DNA from: a virus
Length of the DNA: 33,719 bases
Strand: one strand, 5' to 3'
IMG/VR virus record: IMGVR_UViG_3300025889_000480
Span: 1-33,719 of that record
Shown here: in pieces, positions 14,160-24,793 of the stretch
Numbering within the stretch: the stretch's first letter is position 1
Layout of the letters: each line of letters opens with the position of its first letter
Notes under the pieces: generated by a model
Database searches by the model: none
Seen by the model: the letters and a program-made list of their open reading frames with translations, nothing else
What the model was told of the DNA's origin: nothing
Translations under genes and position numbers: made by a program

Positions 14160-16664
14160 ATGGCTATTAAAATTGAGGGTTTCGATACAGCTTCAGGAAG
14201 TCCAATTAGTGGAGGATTAGTTTATAAAGGCTCTTATGATGCTGCTACTAATACTCCTATTTTAACATCTTCATCAAAAGGAGATTTCTATATAGTATCT
14301 GTAGCTGGTACTTTAGCAGGAGTAACTTTAAATGTAGGTGATCATATAGTATTTAATCAAAATGCTTCTTCTCCAATTACTGCTTCTATGTTTGATGTAA
14401 TTGATAATACTGATTCAGTAACTTCAGTTAACACACAAGTAGGAGCTGTAGTTTTAGATACTGATGATATTTCTGAAACAGCAACTAATCAATATTTTAC
14501 TGCAGCTAGATTTGATACTCAATTAGCTACTAAAGATACTGATGATTTAACTGAAGGTGTATCAAATCTATATTTTACAAGTCCTAGATTCACTTCTGAA
14601 CTAGCGACTAAAACAACTGATAATTTAACTGAAGGTGTATCAAATCTATACTACACTAATACAAGATTTGATACTCAATTAGCTACTAAAGATACTGATG
14701 ATTTAACTGAAGGTGTATCAAATCTTTACTATACTAATACAAGATTTGATACTCAATTAGCTACTAAAGATACTGATGATTTAACTGAAGGTGCTACTAA
14801 TCAATACTTCACAAATACAAGAGCAGATGCAAGAATAGCAGCTGCTGATTTAACTGATTTAAATGATGTAGATTATACAGCAGGAGCAGGAATCGATGGG
14901 AGAGTACTTACTTATGTAAATGCTAATTCTAGATGGGAAGCAGTAGCTCCATCAGGAGGATCAGTAGGAACTTTACAACAAGTTACTGATCAAGGTTCTA
15001 CTACTACTACTAATATTTCAACTGCTCAAATTACATTAGGAGGAGATTTATTAGCAGATGCAGTTTTAACTAGAACTATCGGAGATGAAACTAATAGATT
15101 TATTACTTCTTATTCTGATTTGAATGGAGCAGTAAGATTTAAAGCTAAAGCTTCAGTAGCTCTTTCTAAAGGTGATATAGTATATATTGATGGAGTATCT
15201 GGAGGAGTTCCTACAGTTTCTAAAGCTCAATCTAATTCAGCTTCTACTATGCCCGCTTTTGGCTTGTGTTATGCAGCAGCCTCTTTAAATGCAGATGTAG
15301 AAATAGTTACATTAGGAAATCTCGATGGAATAAATACAGGTTCTTTTAGTGTCGGAGATACTCTTTATGTTTCTTCTACTACAGCAGGAGCTTTAACTAA
15401 TTCAGCTCCTACAAGTGAATCTAATTTAATACAAAACATTGCAAAAGTTGTTAAAGTTGATGCTGTAGGAAATTCAGGAATTTATAAAGTTGGAGGAGCG
15501 GGAAGAACTGCAGCTACTCCAAATCTGAATCAAGATAAGATCTTTTTAGGGAATGCTTCAAATCAAGCTGTATCTACTGCTTTATCTAGTGTGAATCTTT
15601 CATCATTCAATAATAATTTAGATACTGATGATATTTCAGAAGGTGTAACTAATCTATATTATACTAATACAAGATTTGATACTCAATTAGCTACTAAAGA
15701 TACTGATGATGTTTCAGAAGGTGTAACTAATCAATACTTCACAAATACAAGAGCAGATGCAAGAATAGCAGCTGCTGATTTAACAGATTTAAATGATGTA
15801 GACTATACAGCAGGAGCAGGAATTGATGGGAGAGTACTTACTTATGTAAATGCAAACTCTCGATGGGAAGCAGTAGTTTCTCCTTCTGCTCCTGTAACTT
15901 CAGTTAATACTCAAACAGGAGCAGTAATTTTAGATACTGATGATATTTCTGAAGGTGTAACTAATCTATATTATACTAATACAAGATTTGATAATCAGTT
16001 ATCCACTAAAACAACTGATAATTTAACTGAAGGTGTATCAAATCTATACTACACTAATACAAGATTTGATAATCAGTTATCCACTAAAACAACTGATAAT
16101 TTAACTGAAGGTGTAACTAATCTTTACTATACTAATACAAGATTTGATACTCAGTTAGCTACTAAAGATACTGATGATGTTTCAGAAGGTGTAACTAATC
16201 AATACTTCACAAATACAAGAGCAGATGCAAGAATAGCAGCTGCTAATCTTACTGATTTAAATGATGTAGATTATACTGCAGGGGCGGGAATCGATGGGAG
16301 AGTACTTACTTATGTAAATGCAAACTCCAGATGGGAAGCAGTAGCTCCTTCAGGAGGAGGAGGGGGATTTACTTATTCAGCTATTACTTCAGCTTCTTCT
16401 CCTGTCACTGGAGTTATTGAATATCATTATTCAGCAGATACCTCTGGAGGAGCTATTACTATAGATCTTCCAGCGATAGCAGCAGGGAATTCAGGAAAAG
16501 AAATTAGAGTTAAACTGAAAACAGCAGGAAATAATCTAGTATTATCTCCTAATGGCACTGATCAAGTAGAAGCAGGAGGAGCAGGAGTAGACTATACTTT
16601 AACAGTGCAAAATACAGCTATTACTTTAGTAAGCGATGGAAGCTCAAATTGGGAGATCATTTAA
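14160..16664 (+). CDS. Tail fibre protein with tandem repeats
   Basis: This 834-residue protein probably contacts the host surface. After an N-terminal domain it has eleven units of about 26 residues of the type D-D-L/I-T/S-E-G-x-x-N-L-Y-Y-T-N-T-R-F, arranged five, two and four, each group ending in an ADARIAAAD unit followed by LTDLNDVDYTAGAG. Such T-D-D-L-x-E-G-x-x-N-L-Y-Y-T repeats are known from phage and prophage tail fibres and form shaft segments. Between groups one and two lies a domain of about 180 residues (VALSKGDIVYIDG to AAATPNL-like region). The C-terminal 100 residues form a Gly/Ser-rich beta domain. A strong site, AAGGAG, precedes the ATG. Confidence 0.85.
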   Translation: MAIKIEGFDTASGSPISGGLVYKGSYDAATNTPILTSSSKGDFYIVSVAGTLAGVTLNVGDHIVFNQNASSPITASMFDVIDNTDSVTSVNTQVGAVVLDTDDISETATNQYFTAARFDTQLATKDTDDLTEGVSNLYFTSPRFTSELATKTTDNLTEGVSNLYYTNTRFDTQLATKDTDDLTEGVSNLYYTNTRFDTQLATKDTDDLTEGATNQYFTNTRADARIAAADLTDLNDVDYTAGAGIDGRVLTYVNANSRWEAVAPSGGSVGTLQQVTDQGSTTTTNISTAQITLGGDLLADAVLTRTIGDETNRFITSYSDLNGAVRFKAKASVALSKGDIVYIDGVSGGVPTVSKAQSNSASTMPAFGLCYAAASLNADVEIVTLGNLDGINTGSFSVGDTLYVSSTTAGALTNSAPTSESNLIQNIAKVVKVDAVGNSGIYKVGGAGRTAATPNLNQDKIFLGNASNQAVSTALSSVNLSSFNNNLDTDDISEGVTNLYYTNTRFDTQLATKDTDDVSEGVTNQYFTNTRADARIAAADLTDLNDVDYTAGAGIDGRVLTYVNANSRWEAVVSPSAPVTSVNTQTGAVILDTDDISEGVTNLYYTNTRFDNQLSTKTTDNLTEGVSNLYYTNTRFDNQLSTKTTDNLTEGVTNLYYTNTRFDTQLATKDTDDVSEGVTNQYFTNTRADARIAAANLTDLNDVDYTAGAGIDGRVLTYVNANSRWEAVAPSGGGGGFTYSAITSASSPVTGVIEYHYSADTSGGAITIDLPAIAAGNSGKEIRVKLKTAGNNLVLSPNGTDQVEAGGAGVDYTLTVQNTAITLVSDGSSNWEII
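14457..16260 (+). repeat. Tandem 78-base units in the fibre gene (three groups)
   Basis: Units of 78 bases encode the D-D-x-x-E-G-x-x-N-L-Y-Y-T repeats. Groups lie at about 14457-14830 (five units), 15618-15770 (two) and 15935-16240 (four). Some neighbouring units are almost identical in DNA, which suggests recent copying by recombination. Confidence 0.8.
14799..16344 (+). repeat. Three copies of a 148-base block
   Basis: Copies at 14799-14946, 15729-15876 and 16197-16344 have equal length and differ at only a modest number of bases. They encode NQYFTNTRADARIAAA through DGRVLTYVNANSRWEAV. Most differences are synonymous. They close each group of fibre repeats and are targets for homologous exchange within the gene. 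Confidence 0.85.
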
Positions 16665-19671: not shown

Positions 19672-20682
19672 TCAAAATTGATTTAAATAATCATAAAATT
19701 GATATTCAGTTTCAAGAATTGATTGAGTATTCATAGATAAATACTTATTGATTTCATGAGATAATTTATCAGCAGCAATTTCATCATAAACATCAATCTT
19801 ATATCCAGCTTCTACTAATTCATGAATTCTATCAATAGTTACCTGGAAAGATTTCAATCTAAGATTGTTTAAAGCTTTTCTAATATGCTCGATGGGATTA
19901 GCATCATAGACATACCCAAGAAGATATTCTTTAATCTCATTAGATAGAGCATCAATAGAATCTGCATCCATCTTATCAAGTTTCATAAGAGCTTCTGAAG
20001 CAGTCATTGAAACAGATTTAAATTCTCTAGGGAATGGATTAGAAGAAGCTTTAGATGGAGTCTTAGTAGTAATGACTTCTTCAACTTCTTCAGCAACAGG
20101 AGCAGGAGCAGGAGGAGGAGGAGTAGTAGGAACTCTTTCAGATTCTACTGATTGATAGATTATAGCATCTCTTTCTTTTTCATTAGTAATAAGAACTTCT
20201 GCTAATTCATCTGGAGAATAAGCAACTCCAATAATATCAGGATAGAAGCATCTTAAAAGAGCTGTTAAACATCTTTTATGTAACATAGTTTTTCTCATTG
20301 TTTTCCAAGCTCTTTGATTTAATAATCCTCTATCTTGAGCATCTTGAGCAGTAAATGAAAAAGTATGTTCAGGAAGATCAGTAAAATCTAATTCATCTCT
20401 TCTTTTAGTACCCAAGATACATTCATCATCTGTTAATTTAATAATTCGAATATATCCACATATTAAAACTCCATTGGAATCTTTATATCTTCTTACTGCT
20501 CCTGCCATCGAATCAGCATTCATAGCAGGCTTTCCTTTAATTACATAAGTATTAGCAAGAGTTACAGCAATATTATAATTAAAGTGATGACCAAATGTTT
20601 CATAAGCAATTCGATTATTATTAAAATCAAATTGGCTATTAGAAAGAGCGGATAAATTTTGTAATTGTTCTTGAGTTAACAT
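19672..20682 (-). CDS. RecT-like single-strand annealing protein
   Basis: This 336-residue protein resembles RecT/Redbeta-family annealing proteins: KGKPAMNADSMAGAVRRY at about 49-66, then TMRKTMLHKRCLTALLR and YPDIIGVAYSPDEL near 128-160, which match the family pattern of a Met-x-x-Arg/Lys-helix followed by P-D-x-x-x-G-x-Y-x-x-D/E-E. A Pro-rich linker (TTPPPPAPAPVAEE, about 185) leads to a helical C-terminal domain. It would pair single strands during replication-linked recombination. No partner exonuclease is recognised beside it. It ends the leftward early operon, and AAGGAA precedes the start. Confidence 0.68.
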   Translation of the reverse strand: MLTQEQLQNLSALSNSQFDFNNNRIAYETFGHHFNYNIAVTLANTYVIKGKPAMNADSMAGAVRRYKDSNGVLICGYIRIIKLTDDECILGTKRRDELDFTDLPEHTFSFTAQDAQDRGLLNQRAWKTMRKTMLHKRCLTALLRCFYPDIIGVAYSPDELAEVLITNEKERDAIIYQSVESERVPTTPPPPAPAPVAEEVEEVITTKTPSKASSNPFPREFKSVSMTASEALMKLDKMDADSIDALSNEIKEYLLGYVYDANPIEHIRKALNNLRLKSFQVTIDRIHELVEAGYKIDVYDEIAADKLSHEINKYLSMNTQSILETEYQFYDYLNQF

Positions 20683-21628: not shown

Positions 21629-21657
21629 TTTACAAAATAAACAAAAAAGTATATAAG
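21629..21657 (+). promoter_or_regulatory. Rightward replication promoter
   Basis: TTTACA at 21629-21634, a 17-base spacer and TATAAG at 21652-21657 give a good sigma70-type promoter. The initiator ATG at 21701 follows with AAAGGAGGAAG as ribosome site. It is back to back with the leftward promoter. Confidence 0.5.
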
Positions 21658-21700
21658 ATAAATATGAAGTTTTAGAAAAGCTCGATCAAAGGAGGAAGCT

Positions 21701-22459
21701 ATGAATGAGTTTGAATTACAAACTTTAATTATGCAAGCGAGAGAAGTTAAGCCTGCTGATAAATTTGTAATGTTATGTATTCTTAAAAATGTAGATTGGA
21801 GTACCTGGAAAGGAACAGTAACTTTATCTTATATAAGTAAGAAGTATGATGTTAATAGAAGAACATTAACTAGAATCATTCAAAGATTAAAAGATCTAGG
21901 ATGGATAAAGATCATAACTAAAGATGATGAAACAAGAATTACAGTAAATATAAAAGATATTGCAGATAAAAAGACACTAGACAAAATGTCTAGTACCCCC
22001 ATAGACAAAATGTCTAGTACCCCTAGACAAAATGACTATACCCCTATAGACAAAATGTCTAGTACCCCTAGACAAAATGTCTATCCTACACTAGACAAAA
22101 TGTCTACTACCCCTAGACAAAATGTCTATCATAACAATATAATCAATAATAACAATATAAACAATAATATAAACAATAATCAGAATCTTGATCAGCAAGC
22201 AAATTCATATGCTGAATATAGAGAGTTATATCTGCAGTTGTATAATGTCGATATAGATCATGCTAGAAGCTACATAAGAGAAGAAAAGTGGAGCTTCTTA
22301 GAAAGAAATAAAGCTTTCCCTAGATGGGTACATTTAAGCAGCTTAGGAGCAGAAGAAAAAGAAAGAGAGATCTTAGCAAGATTTAATTATGTAGGTTTAC
22401 CCATCACAAAAGCTAATTTATTTAAAGATACAGAATGGAGAAGAGAATGCAGAAAATAA
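21701..22459 (+). CDS. Replication initiator with embedded origin (lambda O-like)
   Basis: This 252-residue protein has an N-terminal winged helix (about residues 20-70; YISKKYDVNRRTLTRIIQRL then LGWIKI) typical of phage replisome organisers. Residues 93-143 are low in complexity (DKMSSTP and PRQNVY repeats) because the DNA there holds seven iterons. Residues 143-162 are Asn/Ile-rich from an AT-rich tract. The C-terminal 90 residues (LYLQLYNVDIDHARSYIREE) would contact the helicase loader. As in lambda O, the protein likely binds its own gene to open the origin. The helicase loader gene overlaps the end. A strong ribosome site fixes the start. Confidence 0.85.
   Translation: MNEFELQTLIMQAREVKPADKFVMLCILKNVDWSTWKGTVTLSYISKKYDVNRRTLTRIIQRLKDLGWIKIITKDDETRITVNIKDIADKKTLDKMSSTPIDKMSSTPRQNDYTPIDKMSSTPRQNVYPTLDKMSTTPRQNVYHNNIINNNNINNNINNNQNLDQQANSYAEYRELYLQLYNVDIDHARSYIREEKWSFLERNKAFPRWVHLSSLGAEEKEREILARFNYVGLPITKANLFKDTEWRRECRK
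21977..22128 (+). other. Replication origin: seven iterons inside the initiator gene
   Basis: A 15-base core TAGACAAAATGTCTA, an inverted repeat of TAGACA around AAA, starts at 21978, 22002, 22024 (one mismatch), 22047, 22069, 22092 and 22114. Spacing is 22-24 bases, about two helical turns, so the sites would face the same side. Most copies are followed by (G)TACCCC. Copies are read in two frames, DKMS four times and RQN(V/D)Y three times, so the DNA and not the peptide is conserved. An AT-rich tract follows directly. Confidence 0.88.
22131..22180 (+). other. AT-rich unwinding element of the origin
   Basis: These 50 bases contain five C and no G. They carry repeated AACAATA and AAACAATAAT units, and lie just after the iterons, as in lambda ori. 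The strand asymmetry (A with C, no G) fits a duplex-opening region. Confidence 0.75.
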
Positions 22460-23328
22460 ACTTTAGTCATTTAGAAGAACTTCTTCTATCAATCAAAGCA
22501 AGTATACCTGAAGATAATTCAAGACCTGTTTACTATGATTACTCTTCATTATCTCCTGATCATCTCCATAAGATGGATTTAATTTTAAGAGGAGAAAAGA
22601 GATATTTAGTAGCAGGAGATATTCCTTGTCATTGTCATGCTGGATATGAATCTGGAAGATCAGGTTCTTATCCTATAGCAATTCCTTGTAAACACTGTCA
22701 TAGTTTAAAGCAAGGTTTACAAAGATTACAGAGGGCCCATCTTCCTAATGATGCTTATGAATGCTCTATAGAAAACTATATCTTTGATTCATCTGTACAG
22801 GAGCAACTAGTAAATCAGATTATCACTTCTAAGAAATCAGCAGGAAACATTCCAGCAAGTCTTTTCATGTATGGAGGAGCAGGAAATGGAAAGAGCACTA
22901 TTAGCTATATTATGAGTAAATATCTATGCCTCAATGGATATAGAGTAAAATATATCCATCATTATCATGAATTTCAGAAAGAAAAAAAGTCCTGGTCAAG
23001 TAATGAAAGTCACTTAGATAAACTGCTAGATAATGTTGATGTATTAGTATTTGATGAATTTGGAGGATTAGGAGGAAGATCAAATTATAGTGAATGGTTT
23101 ACATATACAACTATAGAGCTAATTGGAATTATCTATGAAAAGTTTAAAGCTGGTCAATTATCTATTATTATGACTTCTAATATGACTCCAGATTTAATCT
23201 ATAATAAGCTACTCGATAAGAATTCTATGGCATTATCAAGACTACAAAATATCTTTGGGAATCCTCTTCATATCAAAGGACCAGATAGAAGACCAAAGGG
23301 AAATCAAGTTAGTAGCTGGATAAACTAA
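22447..23328 (+). CDS. DnaC-like AAA+ helicase loader
   Basis: This 293-residue protein would deliver the host replicative helicase to the phage origin. Residues 61-84 carry CHC and CKHC pairs, a likely zinc site seen in phage DnaC-type loaders. A Walker A motif GGAGNGKST is at about 143-151, Walker B VLVFDEFGG around 199-207, and IIMTSN is a sensor-1-like element. It is encoded after the initiator as lambda P follows O. Start at ATG 22447 is chosen because GGAG (22437-22440) lies six bases upstream; ATG 22435 is the alternative. No phage helicase was found, so the host helicase is presumably used. Confidence 0.85.
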   Translation: MQKINFSHLEELLLSIKASIPEDNSRPVYYDYSSLSPDHLHKMDLILRGEKRYLVAGDIPCHCHAGYESGRSGSYPIAIPCKHCHSLKQGLQRLQRAHLPNDAYECSIENYIFDSSVQEQLVNQIITSKKSAGNIPASLFMYGGAGNGKSTISYIMSKYLCLNGYRVKYIHHYHEFQKEKKSWSSNESHLDKLLDNVDVLVFDEFGGLGGRSNYSEWFTYTTIELIGIIYEKFKAGQLSIIMTSNMTPDLIYNKLLDKNSMALSRLQNIFGNPLHIKGPDRRPKGNQVSSWIN

Positions 23329-23406
23329 TTGATTTATATATTTTAAAATGTTAAAAAAGAAGCGGGAGTTTCCTCCTTGCTCCTAAATGAGAAAAAACTA
23401 TAGAAG

Positions 23407-23676: not shown

Positions 23677-24126
23677 TTATATAGAAATGACTTCAATATT
23701 ATTAGTAATTAAATACTCGAGTCCAATTTTAGGATAATAAGAAGTTGCAGGGACTACTACAGCAGCTAATCCTACATGATGAATCATCTTAGCACATGAT
23801 AAACAAGGATTAGTACTTACAATCATAGTACACTCTTTTAAGCTGATTCCCTTTTTTGCACTGTTAGCTATAGCATTCATTTCTGCATGATGACATCCAA
23901 CTTCTACACTTGTTCCTGATTCGATTTTATCATGATCTCTTTTACAATGATCTCCTGCACAATATAAACCAGGAGCTTTTCTAGGAGGTCCATTAAAACC
24001 TGCTGATATTGGATTATTAGAAGCATCAATAATAAAAGCTCCTACTTTTCCTCGAGGGCATACTGACATATCAGCAAGTAAAAAGCTATGACTCATCCAA
24101 TGTTTAAACCATCTATTTTTTATCAT
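23677..24126 (-). CDS. dCMP deaminase
   Basis: This 149-residue zinc enzyme converts dCMP to dUMP. Zinc ligands are His80 in HHAEMNA and Cys108 and Cys111 in NPCLSCAK, with Glu82 as the proton shuttle; GFNGPPR near residue 43 is typical of dCMP deaminases. It overlaps the end of thyX by 14 bases in the same leftward unit, so dUMP made here feeds thymidylate synthesis. Length is normal for the family. The additional CAGDHCKRDH segment with two Cys and two His may be a second metal site as in T4 deaminase. Confidence 0.9.
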   Translation of the reverse strand: MIKNRWFKHWMSHSFLLADMSVCPRGKVGAFIIDASNNPISAGFNGPPRKAPGLYCAGDHCKRDHDKIESGTSVEVGCHHAEMNAIANSAKKGISLKECTMIVSTNPCLSCAKMIHHVGLAAVVVPATSYYPKIGLEYLITNNIEVISI

Positions 24127-24793
24127 CTAAGCAAACTCCTAAGATAAATTTCATATCTTCATCTTTTTCTAAAATCTCTTTAATAGCTTCAGCATAATAT
24201 CTGATTTCTGTTTGTGCATCTTTAGCGAGTCTAAGATTAAGAAAATGAATTAAAGCTTGTAAGGATACTGTCCATATACATTCACTAAATAAAGATAATG
24301 GAAGAACTCCTCTAGCTTGTTCTTTACATACTCCCATCTCGAGCAGATTCTTATATACCTCATGAGACATATTAACCGAGAATTGAAAAGCTTTATAGGC
24401 TCTATCTTGTGTATCTAAATCAAGTATATCTCCTGATCCTTGTTTTATACTTTCTTTAGGAGCTTCTCTAAATTTATCTGGACAATGAAAAGAGTTTTTA
24501 AACTCTACATATCTTCCAGACATTTCATTAAATGTACTTCCTACTTGGTGTTTCATCCATTGTCTAAGAATAAAGATAGGAGCTGCAATATGAAAAGAAA
24601 ACATAACATGCCTGAATGGAGAAGTATGTTTATGATTCCATAAATATTTTATAAGTCTTTTATCTTGTTCTGTTAAAGGTCCTTTATGTCTTTTTCCAAA
24701 TGATACCCTAGCCGCATTAACTACACTTGTAGAGTTTCCCATCTGATCAATTAAGTCTATAAAACCGAATTGAGACTTCATTTCTTCTTTCAT
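24113..24793 (-). CDS. thyX: Flavin-dependent thymidylate synthase ThyX
   Basis: This 226-residue enzyme methylates dUMP to dTMP using FAD and methylene-tetrahydrofolate. HTSPFRHVMFSFHI is the family's H-x-S-x-x-E/R-H region, and RQWMKHQVGSTFNEMSGRY holds the signature. The canonical RHR-X7-S reads KHQ-X8-S here (residues 81-92), a variant with a one-residue insertion that I believe also occurs in other phages. N-A-A-R-V-S-F near residue 26 matches the family's opening. It starts a leftward unit with the dCMP deaminase; the start has AAGGG eight bases upstream. Confidence 0.93.
   Translation of the reverse strand: MKEEMKSQFGFIDLIDQMGNSTSVVNAARVSFGKRHKGPLTEQDKRLIKYLWNHKHTSPFRHVMFSFHIAAPIFILRQWMKHQVGSTFNEMSGRYVEFKNSFHCPDKFREAPKESIKQGSGDILDLDTQDRAYKAFQFSVNMSHEVYKNLLEMGVCKEQARGVLPLSLFSECIWTVSLQALIHFLNLRLAKDAQTEIRYYAEAIKEILEKDEDMKFILGVCLDDKK

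Follow-up and report, generated by a model that had tools for sequence, protein, structure and literature searches.

Iteron plasmids carry their iterons, which a winged-helix Rep protein binds, beside an AT-rich tract and usually outside the rep gene. Among lambdoid phages, the O proteins and the ori are type-specific partners. In lambda, atccctCAAAACGagggaa and three variants of it stand within the O gene in three reading phases and are followed by an AT-rich tract, a layout that carries a proven origin (PMC6022878). The minimal site is a 19-bp imperfect inverted repeat (PMC7466680, PMC6022878), which O, existing as dimers, binds as a dimer (PMC7466680), and this binding is considered to put the AT-rich region under strain (PMC7466680, PMC6022878). 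Here we describe a sequence of 33,719 nucleotides from an uncultured phage (IMG/VR record IMGVR_UViG_3300025889_000480; the window, meaning the whole stretch analysed) in which the region 21977-22182 is very probably a phage replication origin of the lambda type, lying inside the gene of its own initiator and working by the mechanism proposed below. Its iterons, unlike those of most iteron plasmids, are thus located within the initiator gene (Table 1).

Table 1. Features of the putative origin and its surroundings in the window.
Feature	Coordinates	Strand	Basis or remark
Initiator gene, 252 aa (wHTH domain, iteron-encoded linker, small C-terminal domain)	21701..22459	+	PHROG matches, fold
wHTH codons, residues 16-69	21746..21907	+	aligned across 89 initiators
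Recognition helix, residues 53-66	21857-21898	+
R54 codon	21860-21862	+	recognition helix
T57 codon	21869-21871	+	recognition helix
R58 codon	21872-21874	+	recognition helix
Iteron 1	21978..21992	+	encodes DKMS
Iteron 2	22002..22016	+	encodes DKMS
Iteron 3	22024..22038	+	single mismatch (TGACTA); encodes RQND
Iteron 4	22047..22061	+	encodes DKMS
Iteron 5	22069..22083	+	encodes RQNV
Iteron 6	22092..22106	+	encodes DKMS
Iteron 7	22114..22128	+	encodes RQNV
G-free AT-rich tract, 58 bases (putative DNA unwinding element)	22125..22182	+	sequence scan
DnaC-like AAA+ helicase loader	22435..23328	+	phrog_50, E 1e-23
Block exchanged relative to contig L002 (gene start, wHTH, all iterons), ~520 bp	21635..22155 (approximate ends)		identity comparison

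Scanning the window revealed seven copies of the 15-mer TAGACAAAATGTCTA inside a single ORF, one of them with a mismatch, at start-to-start spacings of 24, 22, 23, 22, 23 and 22 bases. These positions confirm an earlier note on this DNA, which had reported seven iterons, one mismatched, 22, 23 or 24 bases apart, and translation of each copy agrees with its claim that they are read in two frames, four as DKMS and three as RQN(V/D). The third frame (*TKCL) is closed to the 15-mer because the TAG stop would fall in frame. When up to three mismatches are allowed, the window has 16 occurrences, whereas shuffles have 3.5 +/- 1.9 and at most 10. The G-free tract that the note had placed after the array is present and is the longest such run on the + strand of the window, but its length is not the 50 bases given there. 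GC skew, one of the coverage-type checks suggested earlier, marks no origin in the window. Since Tandem Repeats Finder also covers the array with an in-frame 45-bp unit, the sameness inside the window array alone could come from recent duplication, and the argument that selection acts on the DNA therefore rests on the relatives.

The product of the ORF matches the O-like and DnaD-like initiator families of PHROG (E 2e-8 to 1e-7), which, with the adjoining DnaC-like loader, bear out the earlier placement of the array in an initiator gene; its matches to several wHTH Pfam domains are weak. AlphaFold predicts a wHTH for residues 1-90 with fair confidence, a pLDDT below 50 for residues 92-213, including the iteron-encoded linker, and a helical C-terminal part at low confidence, and the top Foldseek matches of the model are MarR- and ArsR-type wHTH proteins. 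A sequence search for solved relatives returned only weak matches to wHTH regulators, lambda O also being without a match, while tblastn found no relative of the initiator among 50,697 phage records, and the array and the loader used as queries had no match in phage records either. Near the putative origin, the window also encodes a RecT-like annealing protein (19672-20682, - strand; phrog_561, E 1e-10). A ThyX-type thymidylate synthase (E 2e-48) is encoded beside a dCMP deaminase (E 5e-20; both in 23677-24793, - strand). The large structural gene 14160-16664 contains 78-bp coding repeats with a NLYYTNTRFDTQLATKDTDD-like unit (14508-14822 and 15949-16220, + strand) which, in contrast to the iterons, keep their frame. 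The position of the capsid gene near the right end of the window (1-33719) and of the tail genes at the left suggests that the genome is nearly complete and permuted, the cut falling within the head genes.

The likeness to lambda O proposed in the earlier note holds for the layout: both genes have inverted-repeat iterons in several phases beside an AT-rich tract, about 20-24 bp apart and between the DNA-binding and C-terminal domains. The lambda iterons (TCCCT-CAAAACG-AGGGA and variants, with CAAAACG, TAAAACG or CAAATTG centres) have arms unlike those of the window, the partner of O is P whereas the window loader is DnaC-like, and PF04492 (Phage_rep_O), which matches lambda O at 6e-36, has no match in the window protein at E 0.05. 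By analogy, the window would work like the lambda ori, with a protein that by sequence falls outside PF04492. Alternatively, the repeats may be operators that serve the wHTH protein mainly to repress or autoregulate transcription of its own gene, with the origin located elsewhere. This would agree with the MarR/ArsR-like fold and with a sigma-70-like promoter match (TAGACA-18 nt-TATAAT, 11/12) formed by iteron 7 together with the AT tract at 22114-22143 on the + strand. However, the array is in the middle of the gene and not at its promoter; the initiator families, the adjoining helicase loader and the AT-rich tract fit an origin, and in lambda this layout belongs to a proven origin (PMC6022878), so that a mainly regulatory role appears unlikely. 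Autoregulation could accompany origin function, and given the promoter match the initiator could regulate transcription through or near the origin.

In the close relatives of the gene (L002, L003/L312, L004, L309, L177, L180, L326 and L352), the N-terminal domain is retained and the array sits at the corresponding place, again with inverted symmetry and mixed frames, but the arms are different (GTTCAAAATGAAC and GCTCAAAATGAGC, TATCAAAATGATA, GGACAAATTGTCC in three frames, and others). What they conserve is the pattern of the DNA site, including a CAAA(A/T)TG core, and not the encoded peptide. The comparison of the 15-mer that the earlier note had recommended thus favoured the DNA pattern over the peptide, but the full TAGACAAAATGTCTA is not kept: only the 7-bp core is common to the relatives, and the arms vary along with the recognition helix. 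Its central claim, that selection acts on the DNA, was to be abandoned if relatives retained the peptide and lost the site; we observed the reverse, and sequence comparison demonstrates frame-independent selection on the iteron DNA.

The array belongs to a wider class. Two close copies of the 11-mer GACAAAATGTC are present in 75 IMG/VR stretches, against a chance expectation below one (a rough estimate that assumes ~40 Gb of uniform sequence); 26 of these loci belong to the wHTH set, and all three frames occur. Triplicate arrays were found in 14 bacterial or archaeal contigs, nine of which are in the wHTH set. In literature text the 11-mer turned up only in apparently unrelated papers. Outside the wHTH initiator set, GACAAAATGTC arrays were seen in L294 (6122-6371) and in L020, L011, L055 and L075, some with a strict 21-bp period. 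A search for triple CAAAATG yielded 59 non-redundant loci among the matches listed, some of the matches falling outside initiator genes. Raw triple-core counts were rejected as a discriminator, with at least 119 for CAAAATG and 90 for the reversed core; the two cores are separated by arms, gene families and covariation. Arms are complementary at positions 1-3 in ~0.6 of distinct arm pairs versus 0.2-0.3 for the reversed core, and the initiator family phrog_428 matches 30/42 ORFs, whereas no single initiator family exceeds 4/22 in the reversed-core control. The few initiator genes that this control scan (L202-L281) did match, up to 4/22 for one family, perhaps represent another iteron class.

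An iterated hmmsearch seeded with the wHTH of the window collected 206 array-bearing entries, some loci being entered more than once, which clustered at 70% identity into 89 non-redundant initiators; because of this seeding, the match of the window itself to the profile is not independent. More than one frame is used in 76 of the 89 arrays and all three in 27, and multiples of three make up 70 of the 226 spacings of 20-25 bp, the third expected by chance. R58 is present in 87/89 array-bearing initiators, including that of the window. The 60 bp that follow the arrays are AT-rich and G-poor (69% AT and 15% G, versus 58% and 22% in the remainder of the gene; n = 85, p about 1e-11 to 1e-12). As the profile was grown from array-bearing loci, the share of array-less initiators has to come from elsewhere: most initiators found family-first are without such arrays, and the family-first search of bacterial genomes gave few arrays, for which reason the rule described below is claimed for array-bearing members only. 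A phylum-wide pattern search was positive in 5/398 genomes. Other in-gene inverted-repeat arrays were observed in bacterial genomes (L561, L563, L569 and L557) in initiators that lack R58, with GGTGAA-N5-TGCACC in a single frame and GTACCAACAC...GGTAC in mixed frames; these may be additional iteron classes built on a different core.

The arms were compared with the protein by calculating the mutual information between arm bases, taken as the majority across copies and both sides, and each wHTH column. Base -1 covaries with residue 54 at a z of about 16-17, the next column reaching 3.4, and base -2 with the same residue at about 14-15; residue 57 covaries with bases -3 (z about 9.5) and -4 (about 6.5). 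The low background of the other columns serves as a control, because shared ancestry would raise many of them. The signal persists when loci selected for GACA arms are left out (n = 63; z 10.4, 10.1, 7.4 and 6.0 for -1, -2, -3 and -4) and when the unselected loci are clustered at 50% (n = 44; z 5.1, 6.0, 5.5 and 3.8). In the unselected set, R or K at 54 goes with G at -2 in 19/20 cases, against 9/43 for other residues; S54 goes with GT or TT in 15/16, N54 with CC in 5/7, D54 with TG or CG in 6/6, and P or A at 54 with AT or CT in 8/10. In a leave-one-out test, residue 54 predicted base -1 correctly in 46 of 61 cases, compared with 51% for the commonest base. The window, with R54 and the arm TAGA, fits the association of R with GA at -2/-1; its relatives L180 and L326 are exceptions to the code, base -2 still being G with R or K there. 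Among close pairs, the arms changed in 98/103 with a different residue 54 and in 15/76 with the same one, counts that are descriptive only because the pairs are not independent. Across the aligned initiators, then, residues 54 and 57 of the recognition helix covary with the iteron arms.

It was predicted beforehand that D54 should be found where arrays were chosen by a single criterion, G at -1. Of 14 non-redundant new initiators of this kind, less than 70% identical to earlier ones, 8 have D54 and one has R54, as against D54 in 1/81 of the non-G set (p 2e-7), so that the prediction holds as a strong enrichment and not as an absolute rule. Named phages chosen for the similarity of their proteins agree with the prediction where D54 goes with G (Erwinia PEp14, Klebsiella SopranoGao and ZX1) and N54 with C (Listeria LM 4-11-1); L514, found by family, also combines D54 with G. 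In Staphylococcus phages whose residue 54 is M, I or V, for which there was no prior prediction, the base is mostly T, while Bacillus vB_BhaS-171 (K54), with mixed T/A, is a miss for the code, and several named phages with the wHTH domain had no visible array. The wHTH profile of the window recurs in the DnaD-like or O-like initiators of Staphylococcus 42E, L-m44 and phiIPLA88 and Listeria LM 4-11-1, and likewise in Erwinia PEp14, Klebsiella SopranoGao and the mEp460 group; these share R58, the CAAA(A/T)TG core and the location of the array within the gene with the window, and differ from it in their C-terminal domains and arms. Lambda O, the initiator of the one origin with biochemistry, gave no usable alignment to the profile at the recognition helix. 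No description of such a residue-base rule was found in searches of open-access literature, which misses most subscription journals.

These results also bear on whether the array is simply a coding minisatellite, a recent tandem duplication of the 45-bp unit in a disordered linker, with identical copies because they are young. That the unit is a multiple of three and spans the array, and that the linker is predicted to be disordered, would agree with such an origin. Nevertheless, the same core with its inverted symmetry is found, in mixed frames, across 89 non-redundant initiators whose arms and spacers differ, and the arms track the recognition helix, which makes this explanation very improbable. 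Duplication may well be the way in which iteron copies multiply, but it leaves the recurring core and the link between arm and helix unexplained.

On either side of the block listed in Table 1, identity between the window and L002 is about 95-98% (per 60-bp bin, mostly 0.92-1.00 with a lowest value of 0.77 from 19901 to ~21630, and 0.90-1.00 from ~22160 to 23400), and within the block it is only 0.42-0.63. The S. aureus phages 42E and L-m44 encode the same residues 1-54, and past the array their sequences are again almost identical; they differ in a short stretch in which the recognition helix reads SERTIKR or SESTIKR and the arms read GGA or GGT. L180 and L352 have a common C-terminal half with different helices and iterons, and the initiator of the mEp460 group shares its C-terminal domain with lambda O (36% identity), its N-terminal part being without a match. 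At the level of sequence, these cases establish that the wHTH and its iterons were exchanged jointly as one unit. That a host protein and not the initiator reads the repeats, as the recurrence of the 11-mer GACAAAATGTC in phages of very different hosts might suggest, is hardly credible, since the arms vary between close relatives, tracking the recognition helix of the initiator itself, and helix and sites are swapped together.

For the replication origin proposed here, we infer dimer binding, base contacts, melting, helicase loading and actual use as follows. The wHTH of the initiator would bind each 15-bp inverted repeat as a dimer, for which the inverted symmetry and the covariation of arms and residues offer indirect support. 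The near-invariant R58 would read or anchor the CAAAATG core, residue 54 would read arm bases -1 and -2, and bases -3 and -4 would be read by residue 57. With a spacing of about two helical turns, seven dimers could then form a complex like the lambda O-some, which would strain and melt the adjoining G-free AT tract, and the C-terminal domain, together with the DnaC-like loader, may recruit the host helicase.

More broadly, a large group of phages infecting Bacillota, Pseudomonadota, Bacteroidota and other hosts probably uses a one-helix code that relates amino acids to origin bases (residue 54 to -1/-2, residue 57 to -3/-4 and the invariant R58 to the core), is carried on a cassette and can be predicted from sequence. 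Under such a code, specificity would move as a self-contained cassette, because the sites and their reader share one gene. Origins within genes are known from lambda, and the evolution of specificity in which protein and site change together is hard to study; here, dozens of natural protein-site pairs display this co-change at the level of single residues and bases, 42E and L-m44 being a near-minimal example. The specificity of phage origins and its exchange would thereby become predictable from sequence, and these pairs would also offer a route to candidate origins in uncultured phages.
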